Source: an uncultured Magnetospirillum sp.
GTDB lineage: Bacteria > Pseudomonadota > Alphaproteobacteria > Rhodospirillales > Magnetospirillaceae
Assembly: GCF_903853455.1 (NCBI RefSeq)
Contig: NZ_CAINTR010000183.1
Span: 1-61,013 of the forward strand
DNA length: 61,013 nucleotides
Reading direction: 5' to 3'
Position 1 is the first letter of the stretch. Every line of letters begins with the position of its first letter. The notes under the pieces were generated by a model. The model worked only from the letters and a program-made list of their open reading frames with translations, was not told where the DNA came from and made no database searches. Shown here in pieces: positions 572-35,780 of the stretch. The position numbers and the translations under genes are program-made.

Positions 572-1840
572 TCACGCAAATTGGCGTTGTTTAATAGAAC
601 ACGACATGGTGGCGTTGAGCGCCAGCATGCGGGTCTGGCCGGCGATGTTCTGGATCATGTTGACGACGCTGCCGATGCGCGTCGCCGATTCGGTCAGACC
701 GGCCACCCGCAGGCTGGCGTCGTCGGCCCGCTGGCGCGCCGTGTCGGCCAGCCGCGAGGAATTGGCCACCTGGGCCAGGATCTCCCGCGAGGACGCCTCC
801 AGTTCGGCGGTGGCGCTGGCCACGGTCTGGACGTTGCCGGCGGTGGTCTCGACCGACTCGCTGACCTCCTGGGCGGCCTCGTGCAGCGACGCCGCCACCT
901 GCGACAGCTTGGTGGCGCCGTCGGTCAAACGATTGGTCTGGGACGAGATGTCGCCGACGGTTTCCTGGATCTCGCCCTCCAGCACCTCGGTCAGCGTCAG
1001 CATCTCGTCGCGCAGATATTTCTGGGCGCGGCGCTCCTCCTCCTGCTGGGCGACGACCAGACGCCGGTTCTCCAGGCCGTTGTCCTTGAACACCTGCAAC
1101 GCCGCCGCCATGGCGCCGATCTCGCCGCCAGCGTCCCGCTGCGGCACCATGACCGCATAATCGCCGTCGGCCAACTGGGTCATGGTGGCGGTGATGCGGT
1201 GCAGCGGTCCGACGACTTGGCGTGAGACCACTAGGCCGGTGACGGTGAAGCCGAACAGCAGGCCGGCGACCAGCACCACCAGGAAGGTGACCTGCTTGGC
1301 GCCGTAGGAACTGTCCACCAAAGCGCTCAGGCGGACCACCTCGGCCTCGTTGGCGGTGCCCAGCGCCTTGAGCTGGTCGTTGAGGGCACCGCGCACCTTG
1401 CGGTTGGCGTCGTTGTCGCCGAAGGCCCGTGCCTCGGGCAAGGAGGCCTCGCGCGACAGCCGCACCAGTTCGGTGCGAAAGCGGATGAACTCCTCCGTCG
1501 CCTTCTCGGCGTCGGCGAAGTGGCCACGTTCTTCCGGCGCCACTTGATCGCGCCACTCGGCCAGGGTCCGGCGCAGCTTGTCGAGGGTCTTGAGCAGGGG
1601 GGCGGCGAACTTCTCCGACTCCGCCCCGGTCGTCGCCATGTAGATGCCGCGCGAATCCATCACGATGGCGAAGACCAGGCCGTTGACCCGCTCGGCCAGC
1701 ACCGCGCTGCGGGCGGTGGCCTCCATGTCGGCCACGGTGCCGCGGTAGGAGCGCAGCGAAACCATGGCCAGGATGCCGACGACGACAGCCACCAGCGCGA
1801 GAATGGTCGTGGCCAGATAGATCTTGGACGCTAGACGCAC
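572..1840 (-). pseudogene. Methyl-accepting chemotaxis protein, 3'-truncated
   Basis: The product has an N-terminal membrane segment (about residues 7-28), a periplasmic ligand-binding helical region, a second membrane segment (about 188-210), a HAMP domain and the start of the cytoplasmic signalling coiled coil. The GTG start at 1838-1840 has a GGAGGGG ribosome site. The frame is normal up to LALNAT. At that point family members continue with IEAARAGE, the hairpin tip that binds CheA and CheW. Here the sequence switches to MSCSIKQRQFA and stops. The tip, the return helix and the C-terminal methylation region are missing, so the receptor should not signal. The break at about 605 coincides with the edge of the accessory segment on the left, pointing to an insertion or rearrangement. 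What is present is clearly an MCP. Confidence 0.9.
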
Positions 1841-1958
1841 TTAAGCCCCTCCACAGTTTCCCAAGCCATGCCTATGCCGGGACGGTGTATGGTGCCTTAG
1901 TTCTATGAATAAAGTATCGGCCGAACTTAAACCAAAGATGAACCACACTCCTGGGGCG

Positions 1959-2693
1959 TCATTGCTTCACTCCCAGCACCATGTAGTTGACGTCCAGATT
2001 CTCGGTCTCGCGCCAGGAATCGGTCAGCGGCGAATAGGCCATGCCGGCCATGCGCCGCACATCGACGTCGCAGCCGCGCAGCATGGCGGCGAATTCCGAC
2101 GGGCGGACGAATTTGTGCCAGTCATGGGTGCCCTTGGGCAGCCAGCGCAGGATGTATTCGGCCCCCACCACCGCCAGCGCCCAGCATTTGGCGGTGCGGT
2201 TGAGGGTGGCGCCGACGAAGAGTCCGCCCGGTTTCAGCCGTTGGGTGGCGTGGTCGAGGAAGACGGCGATGTCGGTGACGTGCTCGACCACCTCCATGCA
2301 CAGCACCACGTCGAAGGACAGGCTGGGGTCGAGGTTCTCGGGGGTGGAGACGCGGTAGTCGATGGCGAGGCCCGACTGCTCGGCATGCAAGGCGGCCACC
2401 GCGACGTTCTTGGCGCCGGCGTCGATGCCGGTGACGGCGAAGCCCATGCGGGCCAGCGGCTCGGACAGCAACCCGCCGCCGCAGCCCACATCCAGCAAGG
2501 TCAAGCCCTCGAACGGCCGCAGGAGCGACTCGTCGCGGCCGAAATGGGCGGCGAAGTGCCGGCGCATGAAGTCCAGCCGCACCGGGTTGAAGCGGTGCAG
2601 CGGCTTGAATTTGCCCAGCGGATCCCACCAGGCTTCGGCCATGGCGGTGAACCGGGCGACTTCCTCGGGCGATGCGGTGCCCCCTAACTCCAT
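1959..2693 (-). CDS. ubiG: Ubiquinone biosynthesis O-methyltransferase UbiG
   Basis: A 244-residue class I SAM-dependent methyltransferase, the usual UbiG length. It carries out both O-methylation steps of ubiquinone synthesis. Motif I is LLDVGCGGGLLSEPLA near residue 60, followed by the acidic post-I strand VTGIDAG. The N-terminal signature VARFTAMAEAWWDPLGKFKP and the motif GTHDWHKFVRPSE are typical of UbiG. The start at 2693 is chosen because AGGAG precedes it at good spacing and family alignment begins there; the open frame extends much further upstream only as antisense shadow of lysC. The gene is divergent from lysC, with 174 bases between them that must hold both promoters. In many alphaproteobacteria ubiG and lysC are neighbours in this arrangement. 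Confidence 0.95.
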   Translation of the reverse strand: MELGGTASPEEVARFTAMAEAWWDPLGKFKPLHRFNPVRLDFMRRHFAAHFGRDESLLRPFEGLTLLDVGCGGGLLSEPLARMGFAVTGIDAGAKNVAVAALHAEQSGLAIDYRVSTPENLDPSLSFDVVLCMEVVEHVTDIAVFLDHATQRLKPGGLFVGATLNRTAKCWALAVVGAEYILRWLPKGTHDWHKFVRPSEFAAMLRGCDVDVRRMAGMAYSPLTDSWRETENLDVNYMVLGVKQ

Positions 2694-2867
2694 GGAAAGC
2701 TCTCCTGTTGTCCCCCTCCCCGAACGGGGTGGGCCGCTCTTGCTTCCGAAACTGCGACAGAGTATGAATACGCGCCCTCCCGGCAGCAATCCGGGCATAC
2801 AATAGAATTCCAGAACCGACCGCAAGCGTCTGGAGCGACCAGGCGCTCGGTCCAAAAGGGTTTCCGC

Positions 2868-4088
2868 ATGGCTCGCATCGTTATGAAATTCGGCGGCACC
2901 TCCGTCGCCGACATCGAGCGGATCAAGAATGTCGCCAACCGCGTCAAGCGGGAGGTGGAGTCCGGCAACGAGGTGGCGGTGGTGGTTTCGGCCATGTCCG
3001 GCGTCACCAACCAACTGGTCGCCTGGTGCAACCAGATGGCGCCGCTGCATGACGCTCGTGAATATGACACCGTGGTCGCCACCGGCGAACAGGTGACCAC
3101 CGGCCTGCTGGCCATCGCGTTGCAGGAACTGGGCCTGTCGGCCCGGTCGTGGTGCGGCTGGCAGCTGCCCATCCATACCGACGGCGTCCACGGCAAGGCG
3201 CGCATCATGTCCATCGAAACCGCCGAGATGATCGAGCGCATGGGCAAGGGCGAAGTGGCGGTGGTGGCCGGTTTCCAGGGCCTTGGACCCGACCGGCGCA
3301 TCGCCACCTTGGGACGCGGCGGCTCGGACACCTCGGCGGTGGCGCTGGCTGCGGCCTTGAAAGCGGATCGCTGTGACATCTACACTGACGTGGACGGTGT
3401 CTACACCACCGACCCGCGGATTGTGACCAAGGCCAGGAAGCTCGACAAGATCACCTATGAAGAGATGCTGGAGCTGGCCTCGGTCGGTGCCAAGGTGCTT
3501 CAGACCCGGTCGGTCGAGATGGCCATGAAGCATCGGGTTCGCGTCCAGGTGCTGTCGAGTTTCGAGGACAAGCCCGGGACTCTCGTTTGCGATGAGGATG
3601 AGATCGTGGAAAAGGAACTGGTGAGCGGCATCGCCTACAGCCGCGACGAGGCAAAGGTCACCCTGGTGCGCGTGTCGGATCGGCCCGGCGTCGCCGCCGC
3701 CATCTTCGGACCGCTGGCCGAGGCCGCCGTCAACGTGGACATGATCGTCCAGAACGTGTCCGAGGACGGCAAGTCCACCGACCTGACCTTCACCGTCGGC
3801 AACGCCGACCTGGAGCGGGCCAAGAAGGTGCTGGAAGACCACCAGGGCGAGCTCGGCTACGCGAAGCTGATCTCCGACCCCAACGTGGTCAAGGTCTCGG
3901 TAATCGGCGTCGGCATGCGCAGCCATGCCGGCATCGCCCAGAAGATGTTCCAGACCTTGGCGTCCGAGGGTATCAACATCCAAGTGATTTCCACCTCCGA
4001 GATCAAGATCAGCGTCCTGATCGAGGAAAAGTACACCGAGTTGGCGCTTCGGGCCCTCCACACCGCCTACGGTCTCGACGCCGCCTGA
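2868..4088 (+). CDS. lysC: Aspartokinase
   Basis: A 406-residue monofunctional aspartate kinase, the first step of the lysine, threonine, methionine and diaminopimelate pathway. The N-terminal KFGGTSVAD is the kinase signature, and GRGGSDTSAVALAAAL with the following TDVDGVYTTDP are the substrate and nucleotide loops. Two ACT domains occupy about residues 265-406 (RVSDRPGVAAAIFGPLAEA and VSVIGVGMRSHAGIAQKMF) and are the lysine/threonine feedback site in this family. It heads a same-strand series with the nitronate monooxygenase-like gene (27-base gap) and ptsP. Two other diaminopimelate pathway genes, dapD and dapE, lie 12 kb downstream. Confidence 0.97.
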   Translation: MARIVMKFGGTSVADIERIKNVANRVKREVESGNEVAVVVSAMSGVTNQLVAWCNQMAPLHDAREYDTVVATGEQVTTGLLAIALQELGLSARSWCGWQLPIHTDGVHGKARIMSIETAEMIERMGKGEVAVVAGFQGLGPDRRIATLGRGGSDTSAVALAAALKADRCDIYTDVDGVYTTDPRIVTKARKLDKITYEEMLELASVGAKVLQTRSVEMAMKHRVRVQVLSSFEDKPGTLVCDEDEIVEKELVSGIAYSRDEAKVTLVRVSDRPGVAAAIFGPLAEAAVNVDMIVQNVSEDGKSTDLTFTVGNADLERAKKVLEDHQGELGYAKLISDPNVVKVSVIGVGMRSHAGIAQKMFQTLASEGINIQVISTSEIKISVLIEEKYTELALRALHTAYGLDAA

Positions 4089-4115
4089 CCGACGGACAAG
4101 GGATCAGGGAATTTC

Positions 4116-5156
4116 ATGGACAAGGCCAGACAACGGCTCGAACATCTGTGGCAGCGCGGGCGCGAGTTCCTCGGCACCGAATACGCCATCATGGGCGGCG
4201 CGATGTCGTGGATATCGGAGCGCAACCTGGTCGCCGCCATTTCCAATGGCGGCGGCTTCGGTGTGCTGGCCTGCGGCTCCATGCCGCCGGAACTGCTGGC
4301 CGAGGAGATCCGCGCCACCCAGGAGCGGACCCTCAAGCCGTTCGGCGTCAACCTGATCACCATGCACCCCCAGCTCGAGACCCTGATCGAGCTGTGCGGC
4401 GAGATGCAGGTGGGCCACATCGTGCTGGCCGGCGGACTGCCCGGCAGCGCCGCGATCAAGCAGGCCAAGGACACCGGCGCCAAGGTGATCTGCTTCGCCC
4501 CCGCCCTGGTGGCGGCCAGGAAGCTGCTGCGCTCCGGGGCCGACGCCCTGGTGATCGAGGGCGCCGAGGCCGGCGGCCATATCGGCCCGGTCTCGACCAG
4601 CGTGCTGGCCCAGGAAATCCTGCCGGTGATCGACGCGGTGCCGGTGTTCGTGGCCGGCGGCATCGGCCGCGGCGAGGCGGTGGTGTCCTATCTGGAGATG
4701 GGGGCGGCCGGCTGCCAGCTCGGCACCCGCTTCGTTTGCGCCACCGAGTGCATCGCCCATCCCGAGTTCAAGAAGGCGTTCATCCGCGCCGCCGCCCGCG
4801 ACGCCATGCCCAGCGTCCAGGTCGATCCGCAGTTCCCGGTGATCCCGGTGCGCGCGCTGGGCAACAACGCCACCAAGCGGTTCACCCTGTTTCAGTTGGA
4901 CATCGTCGCCCGCTTCAAGGCCGGTGAGATCGACCAGAAGGAAGCCCAGCTCCGGATCGAGCATTTCTGGGCAGGAGCGTTGAAGAAAGCCGTCATCGAC
5001 GGAGATGTCGAAAACGGGTCCCTCATGGCCGGCCAAAGCGTCGGCATGGTATCGCGCGAGCAGCCGACGGCGGACATCCTCCAGGAGTTGGTGGATCAGG
5101 CCCTGGCCGCCCTGGACGCCAGGGAAGGACCGGTTTCGACGCGAGTCCAATGCTGA
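4116..5156 (+). CDS. Nitronate monooxygenase-like flavin oxidoreductase
   Basis: A 346-residue TIM-barrel flavoprotein of the nitronate monooxygenase / 2-nitropropane dioxygenase / FabK superfamily. Family hallmarks are GGAMSWISERNLVAAISNGG near the start, the glycine-rich FMN-phosphate loops around EGAEAGGHIG, VFVAGGIGRG, and the strand ending in GCQLGTRFVCATE. Members oxidise nitronates or act as enoyl-ACP reductases; the substrate here cannot be read from sequence. The gene is tightly placed between lysC and ptsP and its stop overlaps the ptsP start by seven bases, so it is probably transcribed with both. No functional link to lysine synthesis is evident. Confidence 0.85.
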   Translation: MDKARQRLEHLWQRGREFLGTEYAIMGGAMSWISERNLVAAISNGGGFGVLACGSMPPELLAEEIRATQERTLKPFGVNLITMHPQLETLIELCGEMQVGHIVLAGGLPGSAAIKQAKDTGAKVICFAPALVAARKLLRSGADALVIEGAEAGGHIGPVSTSVLAQEILPVIDAVPVFVAGGIGRGEAVVSYLEMGAAGCQLGTRFVCATECIAHPEFKKAFIRAAARDAMPSVQVDPQFPVIPVRALGNNATKRFTLFQLDIVARFKAGEIDQKEAQLRIEHFWAGALKKAVIDGDVENGSLMAGQSVGMVSREQPTADILQELVDQALAALDAREGPVSTRVQC

Positions 5157-7417
5157 CGGCCGGAACCACCTCGGTTTCCAGGCGGTTGCTGGGGCGTCTG
5201 CGCGACGTGATGGCCGGTGGCGGCTCGGCGCAGGAACGCCTGGACAAGGTGGTGACCCTGATCGCCGCCGACATGGTGGCGGAAGTCTGCTCCTGCTACG
5301 TCATGCGCGCCGGCGAGGTGCTGGAGCTGTTCTCCACCGAAGGCCTGCGCCACGACGCCGTCCACCAGACCCGCCTGCGGGTCGGCGAAGGCCTGGTCGG
5401 CGACATCGCCGCCCATGCAAGGCCGCTGGCCCTGGCCGACGCCCAGGCCCATCCCAATTTCGCCTACCGGCCCGAAACCGGCGAAGAGATTTTCCATTCG
5501 CTGATGGGCGTGCCCATCATCCGGGGCTCGCGGGTGGTCGGCGTCCTGGTGGTGCAGAACCGCACCATGCGCCACTACACCGACGAGGAGATCGAAACCC
5601 TCGAGACCGTGGCCATGGTGCTGGCCGAGCTGGTGGCGTCGGGCGAACTGGTCGACCGCGCCGAGCTGGTGCCGGTGGACGGCAACGCGCTGCTGCCGCT
5701 GCGTCTGGAAGGCGTCCGGCTCAACGGCGGCGTCGGCATCGGCGTCGCGGTGCTGCACAACCCGCGCATCGTCATCCGCCGCCTGGTGGCCGAAGACCCC
5801 GACGTGGAGCTGGAACGTCTCAAGACGGCGCTGGCCGGTATCAAGACGGCGCTGGAGGAATTGTTCTCGCGGCCGGAAATGCGCGACGGCGAGCACCGCG
5901 ACGTGCTCGAGACCTACCGCATGTTCACCGAGGACAAGGGCTGGATCAACCGCATCAGCGAGGCCATCCGCACCGGCCTGACCGCCGAGGCGGCGGTCCA
6001 GAAGGTCCACGACGACACCCGCGCCCGCATGAATCAGATCACCGATCCCTACTTGCGCGAGCGCATGCACGATTTCGAGGATCTGGCCAACCGCCTGCTT
6101 CAGTATCTGTCCAGCGGCAACGAGGACAGCCCGCGCGGCGAACTGCCCGAGAATTCCATCCTGATCGGCCGCAACATGGGGCCGATGGAGCTGTTCGACT
6201 ACGATCCCAAGCGCCTGCGCGGCCTGGTGCTGGAGGAAGGCTCCGCCACCGCCCATGTGGCCATCGTCGCCCGTGCCCTGGACATCCCGGTGGTCGGCCG
6301 GGTCAAGGACGTGCTGGACAAGATCGAACCGCTCGACCCCGTCATCTGCGACGGCGACAATGGGCAGGTCTTCATCCGGCCGCCGGACGACATCCGCGAA
6401 AGCTTCATCGAGGCGGTGGGCCAGCGGGAATTGCGCATGGCGGTCTACGCCCGGTTGCGCGACCTGCCGGCGGTGACCCGCGAAGGCGTCCGCATCGGCA
6501 TCCACATGAATGCCGGCCTGCTGCTGGACCTTCAGCATCTGCACGAATCAGGCTCCGACGGCATCGGGCTCTATCGCACCGAACTGCCGTTCATGGCGCG
6601 CTCCTCGCTGCCCGACGTGGCGGCCCAGACCCTGCTGTACCGCAAGATTCTCGATCAGGCCGAGGGCAAGCCGGTGGTGTTCCGCACCCTCGACGTGGGC
6701 GGCGACAAGGTGCTGCCCTACTGGAATCCCTACGAGGAGGACAATCCGGCGTTGGGCTGGCGGTCGATCCGTATCACGCTGGACCGCCCGGCGGTGATGC
6801 GCCATCAGTTGCGCGCCTTGCTGCGCGCCGCGGCCGGGCGCGAACTGGCGGTGATGTTCCCCATGATCGCCGAGGTGGCGGAGCTGGTTCAGGCCCGGCG
6901 CATCCTCGACATCGAAATCGAGCACGAGCGGCAGAGCGGCACTCCGCTGCCGACCACGATAAAGGTCGGCACCATGCTGGAAGTGCCTGCCCTGGCGTTG
7001 CAGTTGGACGCCCTGCTGCCGCTGGTGGACTTCGTCTCCATCGGCACCAACGACCTGATGCAGTTCCTGTTCGCGGTCGACCGCGGCAATCCCCGCATCG
7101 CCGAGCGCTACGACCCGCTGGCCCCGACCATGATCCGCTTCATGCGCTATGTGGGCGCCAAGTGCCGCGAGCATGACGTGCCGCTGTCGGTATGCGGCGA
7201 GATGGCGGGACGGCCGCTGGAGGCCATGGCGCTGATCGGCGTCGGCATCCGCCATCTGTCGGTGTCGTCGCCCTCCATCGGCCCGGTCAAGACCATGGTT
7301 CGCAGCCTGGAGATCTCGTCGCTGGAATCCTACATGGAAACCCTGATGGACTCGCCCGACCACAGCCTGCGCAGCAAGTTGAAGAGTTTCGCCATCGACC
7401 GTGGCGTCGTCCTGTGA
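5150..7417 (+). CDS. ptsP: PEP-protein phosphotransferase, nitrogen-PTS enzyme I
   Basis: A 755-residue EI-Ntr protein. An N-terminal GAF domain (about residues 20-165) is followed by the PEP-utilising N-domain, the phosphohistidine domain with EGSATAHVAIVARAL (the His in TAHVAI is the phosphorylated residue), and the C-terminal PEP-binding barrel with GIGLYRTELPFM, DVGGDKVLPYWN and FVSIGTNDLMQFLFAVDRGN. It passes phosphate from PEP to NPr and EIIA-Ntr, a regulatory chain linked to nitrogen and carbon status in alphaproteobacteria. The GAF domain separates it from sugar-type enzyme I. The ATG overlaps the end of the upstream gene by seven bases. Length and domain order are normal. Confidence 0.96.
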   Translation: MLTAGTTSVSRRLLGRLRDVMAGGGSAQERLDKVVTLIAADMVAEVCSCYVMRAGEVLELFSTEGLRHDAVHQTRLRVGEGLVGDIAAHARPLALADAQAHPNFAYRPETGEEIFHSLMGVPIIRGSRVVGVLVVQNRTMRHYTDEEIETLETVAMVLAELVASGELVDRAELVPVDGNALLPLRLEGVRLNGGVGIGVAVLHNPRIVIRRLVAEDPDVELERLKTALAGIKTALEELFSRPEMRDGEHRDVLETYRMFTEDKGWINRISEAIRTGLTAEAAVQKVHDDTRARMNQITDPYLRERMHDFEDLANRLLQYLSSGNEDSPRGELPENSILIGRNMGPMELFDYDPKRLRGLVLEEGSATAHVAIVARALDIPVVGRVKDVLDKIEPLDPVICDGDNGQVFIRPPDDIRESFIEAVGQRELRMAVYARLRDLPAVTREGVRIGIHMNAGLLLDLQHLHESGSDGIGLYRTELPFMARSSLPDVAAQTLLYRKILDQAEGKPVVFRTLDVGGDKVLPYWNPYEEDNPALGWRSIRITLDRPAVMRHQLRALLRAAAGRELAVMFPMIAEVAELVQARRILDIEIEHERQSGTPLPTTIKVGTMLEVPALALQLDALLPLVDFVSIGTNDLMQFLFAVDRGNPRIAERYDPLAPTMIRFMRYVGAKCREHDVPLSVCGEMAGRPLEAMALIGVGIRHLSVSSPSIGPVKTMVRSLEISSLESYMETLMDSPDHSLRSKLKSFAIDRGVVL

Positions 7418-31320: not shown

Positions 31321-31617
31321 CTAGCAGCACTCGTCTTCCAGCCGGCGGAGCGCGGCGAGGCCGATTTCGTCGGCGGCGGCTTCGAACAGTTCCTCGATGT
31401 AGTAGGTGTGGGAGCAGGCCAGGCACAGCTCGTCCGACTTGCGGGCGCCCAGCTTGCCGGCCTCGGCCAGGCGGATGCGGAAGCGGTCCCAGAAGCAGTT
31501 GGCATAGGCCGGCAGGTCGATCAGGGCCAGGACGTGCTCGACCACGATGCGGGCGTTGCCGTCGCAATCGATGCCGTTGAACGAGATATAGCGGTCCGGC
31601 GGAACGGCGATGCTCAT
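31321..31617 (-). CDS. cowN: N2-fixation sustaining protein CowN
   Basis: A 98-residue protein from the ATG at 31617 with GGAGA eleven bases upstream. It matches the CowN family from the first residues (DRYISFNGIDCDGNARIVVE) through CFWDRFRIRLAEAGKLGARK to the diagnostic C-terminal ending EDECC. CowN protects nitrogenase so that N2-dependent growth continues in the presence of carbon monoxide, as shown in Rhodospirillum rubrum. The upstream gene is a PAS-LytTR regulator of the RcoM type, and three LytTR-type repeats lie between them. The short in-frame extension upstream of 31617 runs into those repeats and is unlikely to be coding. Confidence 0.88.
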   Translation of the reverse strand: MSIAVPPDRYISFNGIDCDGNARIVVEHVLALIDLPAYANCFWDRFRIRLAEAGKLGARKSDELCLACSHTYYIEELFEAAADEIGLAALRRLEDECC

Positions 31618-31673
31618 GATGCTCTCCCTGGCTGGGCCACAGCCTTGGTTATCGCCGCGCCGGGAACAACCGG

Positions 31674-31730
31674 GCATGAACGAACGGAGCCCCCGGCGCG
31701 TGAACGGTCCCCAGGCCCGCGTGAACGGTA
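31674..31730 (-). promoter_or_regulatory. Three LytTR-type direct repeats upstream of cowN
   Basis: Read on the minus strand: ACCGTTCACG at 31720-31729, the identical ACCGTTCACG at 31699-31708, and TTCGTTCATG near 31675-31684. Spacings are 21 and 24 bases, about two helical turns. Each matches eight of nine positions of the usual LytTR box (W-M-M-GTT-N-R-K). A possible -10 (GATAAC, 31648-31653) lies between the repeats and cowN. The repeats sit between the regulator's stop and cowN, so this is the expected operator. Confidence 0.7.
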
Positions 31731-31734
31731 ATGG

Positions 31735-32436
31735 TCACAGCGCCAACCGCCGCCGGACCAGATCGATGCGAGCGCGGCTGACCGGCACATGGGGATTGTT
31801 GGGAGCCGCCATGACGATGGCCCACTGGCCGTCGCGGCGGTCGATGGCGCGGGCATGGTGCAGGTTGACGACGAAGCTGCGATGCACCCGCAGGAACACG
31901 GCGGGATCGACCCGCTTGACCAGGGCGGCCAGCGACAGCGAGCAGAAATGCTGGCCGTCGGCGGTGTGGACGCGGGTGTAGTGCCCCTCCGCCTCCAGAT
32001 AGACGGCGTCGGCCACGTCCAGCAGCACCACGCCGGCGCGCGATCCCACCGGCAGCTTGACCAGGATGTCGCCGGACGCGGGCGCCGCCGCCGTCATGGC
32101 GAAGCCCTCGGGCAGATGGAAGATCATGCACCAGCCGGGAGCTTCCTCGCTTACCCCCTCCATCATGGTGACCCGCGCCACCAGGGTTCCGAACGGCAAG
32201 GTCATGGCCATGCCCGCCGGTTCGTGGGGACGGGCGCGGGCGGCGTCCAGCAGCCATTGCACCTTGGCGCGGGCGGGTTCGGGATGCAGGTCCAGCAGGT
32301 CGGCGCCCAGGATGGGGCCGTTCACCGGCTCCAGCAGGCGCCGCGCCAAACCGTTGGCAGCCACCACCCGGCGGCGGCTGTCCAGCAGAACCACCCCCAT
32401 GGGGGCGCGTTGGAGCTGGTAGGCGACGCTGGTCAT
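31735..32436 (-). CDS. rcoM: PAS-LytTR regulator, RcoM-like CO sensor
   Basis: A 233-residue one-component regulator. Residues about 5-110 form a PAS domain; about 135-233 form a LytTR DNA-binding domain (EAEGHYTRVHTADG, FLRVHRSFVVNL, VPVSRARIDLVRRRL). The PAS part resembles RcoM, which binds heme and responds to CO: LDLHPEPARAKVQWLL contains the His equivalent to its heme ligand (here His51), and MAMTLP offers Met76 or Met78 for the ligand CO displaces. The Cys that binds oxidised heme in Burkholderia RcoM is not in the matching loop. The start at 32436 aligns with the family minus its short N-terminal extension. cowN follows directly. Heme binding is inferred. Confidence 0.8.
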   Translation of the reverse strand: MTSVAYQLQRAPMGVVLLDSRRRVVAANGLARRLLEPVNGPILGADLLDLHPEPARAKVQWLLDAARARPHEPAGMAMTLPFGTLVARVTMMEGVSEEAPGWCMIFHLPEGFAMTAAAPASGDILVKLPVGSRAGVVLLDVADAVYLEAEGHYTRVHTADGQHFCSLSLAALVKRVDPAVFLRVHRSFVVNLHHARAIDRRDGQWAIVMAAPNNPHVPVSRARIDLVRRRLAL

Positions 32437-34322: not shown

Positions 34323-34323
<1 letters not shown>

Positions 34324-35780
34324 TGGCCTATATCATCCAGGGCGAAACCGGCGATTGGGAGGTCGTCATCGGCCTCGAGGTCCACGCGCAGGTGATCTCG
34401 CACTCCAAGCTGTTTTCCGGCGCCGCCACCGAGTTCGGGGCCGAGCCCAACACCCAGGTCAGCTTCGTCGATGCCGGCTTCCCCGGCATGCTGCCGGTGA
34501 TCAACGAGGTCTGCGTCGCCCAGGCGGTCAAGACCGGCCTGGGGCTGAAAGCGCGCATCAACCTGACATCGGTGTTCGCCCGCAAGAACTACTTCTACGC
34601 CGACCTGCCCCAGGGCTATCAGATCAGCCAGTTCGACAAGCCCATCGTCGGCGAGGGCGAGGTGATCCTCGACCTACCCGACGGCTCCACCCGCACCGTC
34701 GGCATCGAGCGGCTGCATCTGGAGCAGGACGCCGGCAAGTCCATCCACGACATGCATCCCAGCAAGTCGTTCATCGACCTCAACCGCTCGGGCGTGGCGC
34801 TGATGGAGATCGTCTCCAAGCCCGATCTGCGCTCGCCGGAAGAGGCCGGCCTATACCTGACCAAGCTGCGCTCGATCCTGCGCTATCTGGAGACCTGCGA
34901 CGGCAACATGCAAGAAGGCTCCATGCGCTGCGACGCCAATGTCAGCGTCCGGCCGGTGGGCTCGACCGAGCTGCGCACCCGCTGCGAGATCAAGAACGTC
35001 AACTCCATCCGCTATGTCCAGCAGGCCATCGAGTTCGAGGCAAGGCGCCATATCGACGTCTACGAGACCGGCGGCACCATCAGCCAGGAGACCCGGCTGT
35101 TCGATTCCATCAAGGTCGAGACGCGGTCCATGCGCTCCAAGGAGCAGGCCCACGACTACCGCTACTTCCCCGACCCCGACCTGCTGCCGCTGGTGATTGC
35201 CCAGGACTTCGTCGATGGCATCAAGGCCGGCTTGCCGGAGCTGCCCGACGCCAAGAAGACCCGCTTCATGGCCGAGTACGGCCTTAACGCCTACGACGCC
35301 GGGGTTTTGGTGGCGGAGCGCATTTCGGCCGAGTTCTTCGAGACCGTGGCCAAGGGCCGCGACGCCAAGATCGCCTGCAACTGGGTGATGGGCGACTTCT
35401 TCGCGGCACTCAACGCCACCGGCAAGACCATGGAGAACCCGCCGGTCTCGGCCAAGGATCTCGGTGCCCTGATCGACCTGATCGGCGACGGCACCCTGTC
35501 GGGCCGCCTCGCCAAGGACGTCTTCGCCTTGATGGTGGAAACCGGCAAGGCGCCCGGCGTGCTGGTCGAGGAAAAGGGCCTGAAACAGGTCACCGACACC
35601 GGCGCCATCGAAGCGGCGGTGGACGCGGTCATCGCCGCCAACCCCGACAAGGTGCAGCAGGTCAAGGACGGCAAGACCACCCTGCTGGGCTGGTTCGTCG
35701 GCCAGGTGATGAAGGCCACCCAGGGCAAGGCCAACCCGGCCATGGTCAACGAGATGCTGTCCAAGAAGGTGCTGGGGTAG
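34323..35780 (+). CDS. gatB: Asp/Glu-tRNA amidotransferase subunit B
   Basis: A 485-residue GatB that binds the mischarged tRNA, phosphorylates the glutamyl or aspartyl end and accepts ammonia from GatA. Signatures are [38 protein letters not shown] and the region [13 protein letters not shown] with [20 protein letters not shown]. The C-terminal YqeY-like tail domain is complete ([20 protein letters not shown]). The start at 34323 follows the family; the frame extends into gatA without similarity. The operon gatCAB is complete. Confidence 0.97.

Follow-up and report, generated by a model that had tools for sequence, protein, structure and literature searches.

A likely RcoM-like CO switch with conserved LytTR boxes upstream of cowN in Magnetospirillum

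In an uncultured Magnetospirillum sp. a gene for a LytTR protein with a PAS-like N-terminus lies directly upstream of cowN, and the gap between the two holds putative operator boxes. Sequence comparison establishes the identity of both genes, the conservation of the candidate heme ligands, and the conservation of the boxes together with their association with RcoM. We infer that the protein carries heme, that CO is its signal, that it binds DNA and that it activates rather than represses, and we consider the following mechanism likely. The protein would be an RcoM in which His51 ligates the heme and Met76 is the second ligand, the one that CO displaces. With CO bound, RcoM would occupy the boxes at 31677-31725, which lie immediately before the cowN promoter. 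It would then activate cowN, whose product would keep Mo-nitrogenase working under CO. The window, i.e. the whole stretch of DNA that was analyzed, comprises 61,013 nucleotides, and its relevant features are collected in Table 1.

Table 1. Features of the rcoM-cowN locus, with positions in the window
Feature	Position	Strand	Basis or remark
Operator box 1, TTCACGCG	31718..31725	(-)	PWM 13.8 bits
Operator box 2, TTCACGCG	31697..31704	(-)	21 bp after box 1; PWM 10.6 bits
Probable operator box 3, in register, degenerate TTCGTTCA	31677..31684	(-)	20 bp after box 2; PWM 6.3 bits
Copy at 24 bp of the earlier note, TTCATGCC	31673..31680	(-)	PWM 4.1 bits
Possible -35, TTGTTC, just downstream of the boxes	31664..31669	(-)	Inferred, weak; CCGGTTG in four promoters
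rcoM-like gene, 233 aa, PAS-like N-terminus and C-terminal LytTR	31735..32436	(-)	Profile and alignment
His51 codon, candidate proximal heme ligand	32284..32286	(-)	Aligns with RcoM His74
Met76 codon, candidate CO-replaceable ligand	32209..32211	(-)	Aligns with RcoM Met104
cowN, 98 aa	31321..31617	(-)	PF20543 109.8 bits; NF033689 101.6 bits

The locus and its regulator

CowN exceeds the cut-offs of both curated models, which are 27 bits for PF20543 and 48 bits for NF033689. An earlier note on this DNA had placed cowN downstream of a PAS-LytTR gene on one strand, and this arrangement holds: rcoM is followed by cowN on the minus strand, with 117 bp between them. The order mutY - orf - cowN - rcoM - gatC is common to the window and genome G003, and rcoM adjoins gatC-gatA in G005, G008 and G013 too. 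In Paramagnetospirillum marisnigri (L076 1618-3432), gatC is followed directly by the counterpart of window positions 34323-35780; gatA, which lies between the two in the window, gave no match there.

The LytTR domain of the regulator reaches 73.4 bits against PF04397 in a Pfam profile search (cut-off 22.6), and the LytTR half of its predicted model matches the LytTR chain 3d6w_B in Foldseek (E 8.2e-9). Matches of the PAS half stay under the Pfam cut-off, the best being PAS_4 with 17.7 vs 23.1 bits, and residues 1-110 are modeled with moderate confidence (block pLDDT 47-85, mostly 55-85); the PAS chains nearest to this model, with the heme PAS of EcDOS among them, reach E about 0.005-0.02. Along most of its length the protein aligns with a PAS-LytTR protein from the plasmid coxMSL region of Paraburkholderia aromaticivorans (31% identity, 243 columns), and our RcoM comparisons, one with this P. 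aromaticivorans record and one with an RcoM-2 sequence, give about 31-32% identity. Taken together, the profiles and alignments support the view that the window protein is RcoM-like.

Candidate heme ligands

The earlier note had named His51, Met76 and Met78 as residues of interest, and all three are found at these residue numbers. Their conservation was counted in 31 PAS-type proteins, namely the 30 encoded directly upstream of cowN plus that of G255, the row of G087 having been removed; RcoM residues are numbered after the RcoM-2 sequence. His51 is invariant (31/31) and aligns with His74, the RcoM heme ligand, so that His51 stands as a heme-ligand candidate. RcoM Cys94 lies opposite a gap in the window protein. 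Met76 likewise qualifies as a ligand candidate: the position holds Met in 22 proteins, Leu in 7, Ala in 1 and Phe in 1, and it aligns with Met104, the CO-replaceable RcoM ligand according to the title of Bowman 2016, as given in the reference list of PMC9670170. Met78, on the other hand, is not a likely ligand, because it aligns with RcoM Ile106 and is Met in just 16 of the 31 proteins.

These counts bear on the nature of the signal. The regulator might control cowN through the boxes while responding not to CO as such but to redox state, to O2 or NO at a heme PAS domain, or to some other ligand. Such a reading would fit the replacement of Met76 by Leu, Ala or Phe in 9 of the 31 relatives and the weak resemblance (E 0.003-0.02) of the modeled PAS half to heme PAS sensors such as the O2 sensor EcDOS and FixL, and to non-heme PAS domains. 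We nevertheless consider it unlikely, given that the target gene is a CO-protection gene, that both ligand residues are present in the window protein and that this protein aligns with a cox-linked one along most of its length.

Among the nine relatives with a replaced Met76 is G249, whose RcoM-like protein keeps the heme His and has Ala at the Met104 position, although its gene adjoins cowN.

Operator boxes upstream of cowN

Box 1 is the top of the 121,994 PWM positions in the window. Scores elsewhere in the window reach 13.4, 13.1, 12.7 and 12.6 bits, single boxes thus not being rare, and box 2 lies outside the window's top 12 scores. According to the earlier note there were three repeats, at steps of 21 and 24 bases. 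Copies do stand at these steps, but the aligned relatives point to TTCGTTCA at 31684, a step of 20 bp from box 2, as the probable third repeat, which would put the TTCATGCC copy at 24 bp out of register. G005, G008 and G013 have one promoter spacing in common: their third box (TTCGGGCA in G005 and G013, TTGAGGCA in G008) follows box 2 at a step of 20 bp and precedes the TTG of CCGGTTG by 15 bp. On this alignment we place the window's third repeat at 20 bp. A PWM built without the window boxes also favors TTCGTTCA over TTCATGCC at 31680 (6.3 vs 4.1 bits). A 4-bp duplication that would have shifted the third box, giving the 24-bp step, was rejected, since box 1 and the TTG of the common CCGGTTG stand 56 bp apart in the window and the three relatives alike (4/4).

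The first two boxes of the window fit TTCNNGC, with TTCGTTCA as the in-register third. Among the gaps described below, that of the window belongs to the 26 with a TTNNNG pair and stands outside the 15 with a strict triple. By its sequence, the putative operator of the window consists of two good boxes and a weak third.

A sigma-70 scan of the region gave no match for the possible promoter, which is weak. The window promoter is only putative, which leaves some room for a protein that represses cowN and is released by CO. This has been reported for CoxC, a LytTR repressor that, according to the accessible text of PMC11347149, acts on three similar repeats (TTNNNGCN) overlapping the -35 box. We regard repression as quite improbable here, as the boxes lie upstream of the possible -35, and the same text describes RcoM1 as an activator that binds upstream of the -35, its operator being three TTCNNGCA repeats separated by 12-13 bp. 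Activation by CO-bound RcoM is the reading that we retain.

Conservation of the boxes across cowN genes

Of 297 genomes of the order, 46 contain cowN. All 46 neighborhoods were inspected; their flanks vary, and some are cut by contig ends. In 30 of them a PAS-type RcoM gene lies directly upstream on the same strand, in one (G087) an MHYT-LytTR gene takes this place, and in 15 neither is found there. Among these 15, the rcoM of G255 is convergent and lies beyond the cowN end, G129 has the gene on another contig, and G296 shows a match to the LytTR part only, with its cowN promoter at a contig end; the other 12 gave no match to the regulator genome-wide.

The 30 rcoM-cowN gaps were scanned over their whole length (115-242 bp). 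Of these gaps, 26 contain TTNNNG pairs at 20/21 bp, vs 1.8 expected from dinucleotide shuffles, and 15 contain triples at these steps, vs 0.04 expected. Accordingly, the spacing histogram shows 20 bp in 23 gaps and 21 bp in 17, with further peaks at 41 (14), 15 (11) and 35 (10), of which those at 15 and 35 may reflect TTGCCG after CCGG. With 200 bp scanned upstream of cowN in G255, G129 and the 12 genomes that lack RcoM, and with G087 and G296 omitted, the pair is found upstream of cowN in 28 of 32 cases with RcoM (26/30 plus G255 and G129) and in none of the 12 without (Fisher p 9e-8, shared ancestry ignored). The strict pair is absent from 4 of the 32 upstream regions from RcoM genomes. In G255 a triple precedes cowN while rcoM is not upstream, which shows that cowN can retain its boxes even with rcoM in another position. 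As far as sequences tell, the predicted boxes are conserved and associated with RcoM across cowN genes.

Could the repeats have arisen by chance in GC-rich DNA? Single boxes are common, and the loose pair pattern (TTCNNGC, steps 20-22) gave 96 matches in the whole genome vs 109 when reversed; a genome search with this pattern alone was therefore discarded as uninformative. Yet we give chance next to no credence, because spacing and position recur in relatives, in 26 of 30 gaps vs 1.8 expected. The strict pair pattern gave 6 matches in the whole genome vs 2 reversed. Long open frames run across the remaining five, as spurious ones do across the window site, and the strict patterns yielded no convincing second site as a further RcoM target in the genome.

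Several loci show how the arrangement varies. In G014 (L104 3754-4193), the window's locus takes the form mutY - orf - cowN - gatC - gatA, with cowN intact and both rcoM and the boxes absent; CooA or RcoM found no match elsewhere in that genome. It is the only clean case of joint loss of rcoM and boxes. G124 was considered as a second one and rejected, as no gene from around its cowN found a match in the flanks retrieved for six relatives. G010 (L105 5805-6005) holds an rcoM remnant (residues 48-116) beside gatC, and its genome gave no cowN match. In the cowN gap of G087 (L040 269-1363) the strict scan found no pair; by eye, CTGGTG and TTGGTG lie 20 bp apart, one mismatch from a TTNNNG pair.

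It could still be that the boxes are remnants or act elsewhere, and that cowN transcription either reads through from rcoM or starts at another promoter, e.g. one of the sigma-54/NifA type. The gene indeed lies on the same strand 117 bp after rcoM, and a loose pattern gives sigma-54-like matches near some cowN genes, including those of G008, G165 and G197 in the RcoM group. Against this, the boxes stay with cowN in G255 and G129, where rcoM is not directly upstream, and patterns of the NifA, sigma-54 and CooA types found nothing within 250 bp upstream of the window cowN. We hold this explanation to be highly improbable and continue with control of cowN by RcoM through the boxes. Simple patterns may miss sites, however, as the CooA-type pattern finds nothing at the cowN of G249.

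Five cowN genes of genus g62 (L066, L068, L069, L070 and L071), which lack RcoM, have sigma-54-like TGG-N9-TGC sites, which precede the matched part of cowN by 75-87 bp.

RcoM, cowN and CO genes in related genomes

At E 1e-3 the regulator matched in 17 of 60 relatives. Fourteen matches, the window's own genome included, are near full length; the remaining three are a fragment in G010 and the LytTR part only in G032 and G039. The rcoM-cowN pair is present in P. marisnigri, Magnetospirillum aberrantis, Magnetospirillum sulfuroxidans and Telmatospirillum siberiense. Within the genus, 9 of 17 genomes have full-length RcoM, 10 have cowN and 9 have both (Fisher p 4e-4). All 17 have nifD; that of the window genome scores 835.9 bits against TIGR01282, above the cut-off, which places a Mo-nitrogenase in the genome that carries cowN.

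A CooA search with the R. rubrum query at E 1e-12 gave no match in the window genome (G000); CooA matched in none of the 17 genus genomes and in 8 of the 53 genomes searched overall. In six of the nine genus genomes with RcoM and cowN, neither CooS nor form I CoxL exceeds the cut-off, one of these six (G012) being only 79% complete. CooS is present in G003 and G013, both with RcoM and cowN, and the window genome has form I CoxL. A phylum-wide sample contained cowN in 5 of 398 genomes, two of them already encountered, a set too small for a wide regulator comparison. In one of the three new genomes, from another family (G306, L110 746-1306), a CooA homologue (32% identity) is encoded directly upstream of cowN.

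The form I CoxL of the window genome is the only one over the cut-off among the 17 genus genomes. Just upstream of its coxM, coxS and coxL genes (L103, contig C54 of G000, 1524-5296) lies a gene (207-1310) for an MHYT-LytTR protein with three MHYT repeats, the only other LytTR match in that genome. The gap before coxM contains two copies of TTCGTGCA and one of CCCGTGCA, with steps of 11 and 21. In the window genome, CO oxidation and nitrogenase protection may thus be assigned to different LytTR regulators whose box words are similar.

Discussion

Accounts of RcoM deal mainly with its regulation of CO oxidation genes. If the proposed circuit is true, a conserved RcoM operator at cowN would give RcoM a second role, that of guarding nitrogen fixation, and most RcoM-cowN genomes of the genus show no CO dehydrogenase over the cut-off. 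We are evenly divided on a broader reading, in which RcoM of the Magnetospirillum clade would have come to serve nitrogenase protection alone, with no tie to CO oxidation and perhaps none to NifA control, while the window genome would run a second LytTR regulator (MHYT-LytTR at coxMSL), splitting CO protection from CO oxidation with possible cross-talk. The natural variants of operator and ligands would help to test three-box LytTR binding and heme-ligand switching.

As to the earlier note's central claims, comparison lends support to the RcoM-like identity, the putative operator and its link to cowN, through the aligned ligands, the published box and boxes that track RcoM. As far as the accessible parts of these sources go, the RcoM triplet operator is already published, and so is the adjacency of rcoM and cowN in Rhodospirillum rubrum, in a passage of PMC4257681 that cites Kerby and Roberts 2011. 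No description of RcoM boxes at cowN was found in the openly readable literature, and one may exist elsewhere. None of the full-text matches listed concerned Magnetospirillum with cowN. What is newer are the conserved boxes at cowN, the RcoM-cowN pairs in genomes without CO dehydrogenase genes over the cut-off, and MHYT-LytTR at cox.

Comparison with known systems

The window resembles the RcoM-1 and RcoM-2 systems of Paraburkholderia xenovorans LB400 in a single-component layout of PAS-like and LytTR domains, in the equivalents of His74 and Met104, and in TTCNNGC boxes that precede the target gene at a spacing of about 21 bp. It differs from them in its proposed target, which is cowN and not cox, in a gap at Cys94 and in a degenerate third box. 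Around coxMSL in P. aromaticivorans, TTNNNG triples, counted without a shuffle control, precede coxM (steps 21, 20) and, toward rcoM, an ompW-type gene (21, 21).

With R. rubrum the window shares the adjacency of rcoM and cowN. G249, with a CooA that matches the R. rubrum sequence at 100% identity, has the same rcoM-cowN order and one box pair at 20 bp; unlike the window genome it also has CooA, and its RcoM-like protein differs by the Ala at the Met104 position. In Gluconacetobacter diazotrophicus and Rhodobacter capsulatus, cowN control is likewise proposed to be CO-responsive. There, according to the accessible text of PMC8047169, it is exerted by CooA, with its own palindromic site, and by NifA, partly as predictions, whereas the window genome has no CooA match and, by simple patterns, no CooA- or NifA-type site.

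CoxC of Afipia carboxidovorans, in the part of PMC11347149 available to us, shares with the window regulator the LytTR domain and, as proposed here, binding to three repeats and CO responsiveness. It is, however, a membrane MHYT sensor and a repressor, unlike the presumed activator of the window. The window genome also encodes an MHYT-LytTR protein, beside coxMSL.
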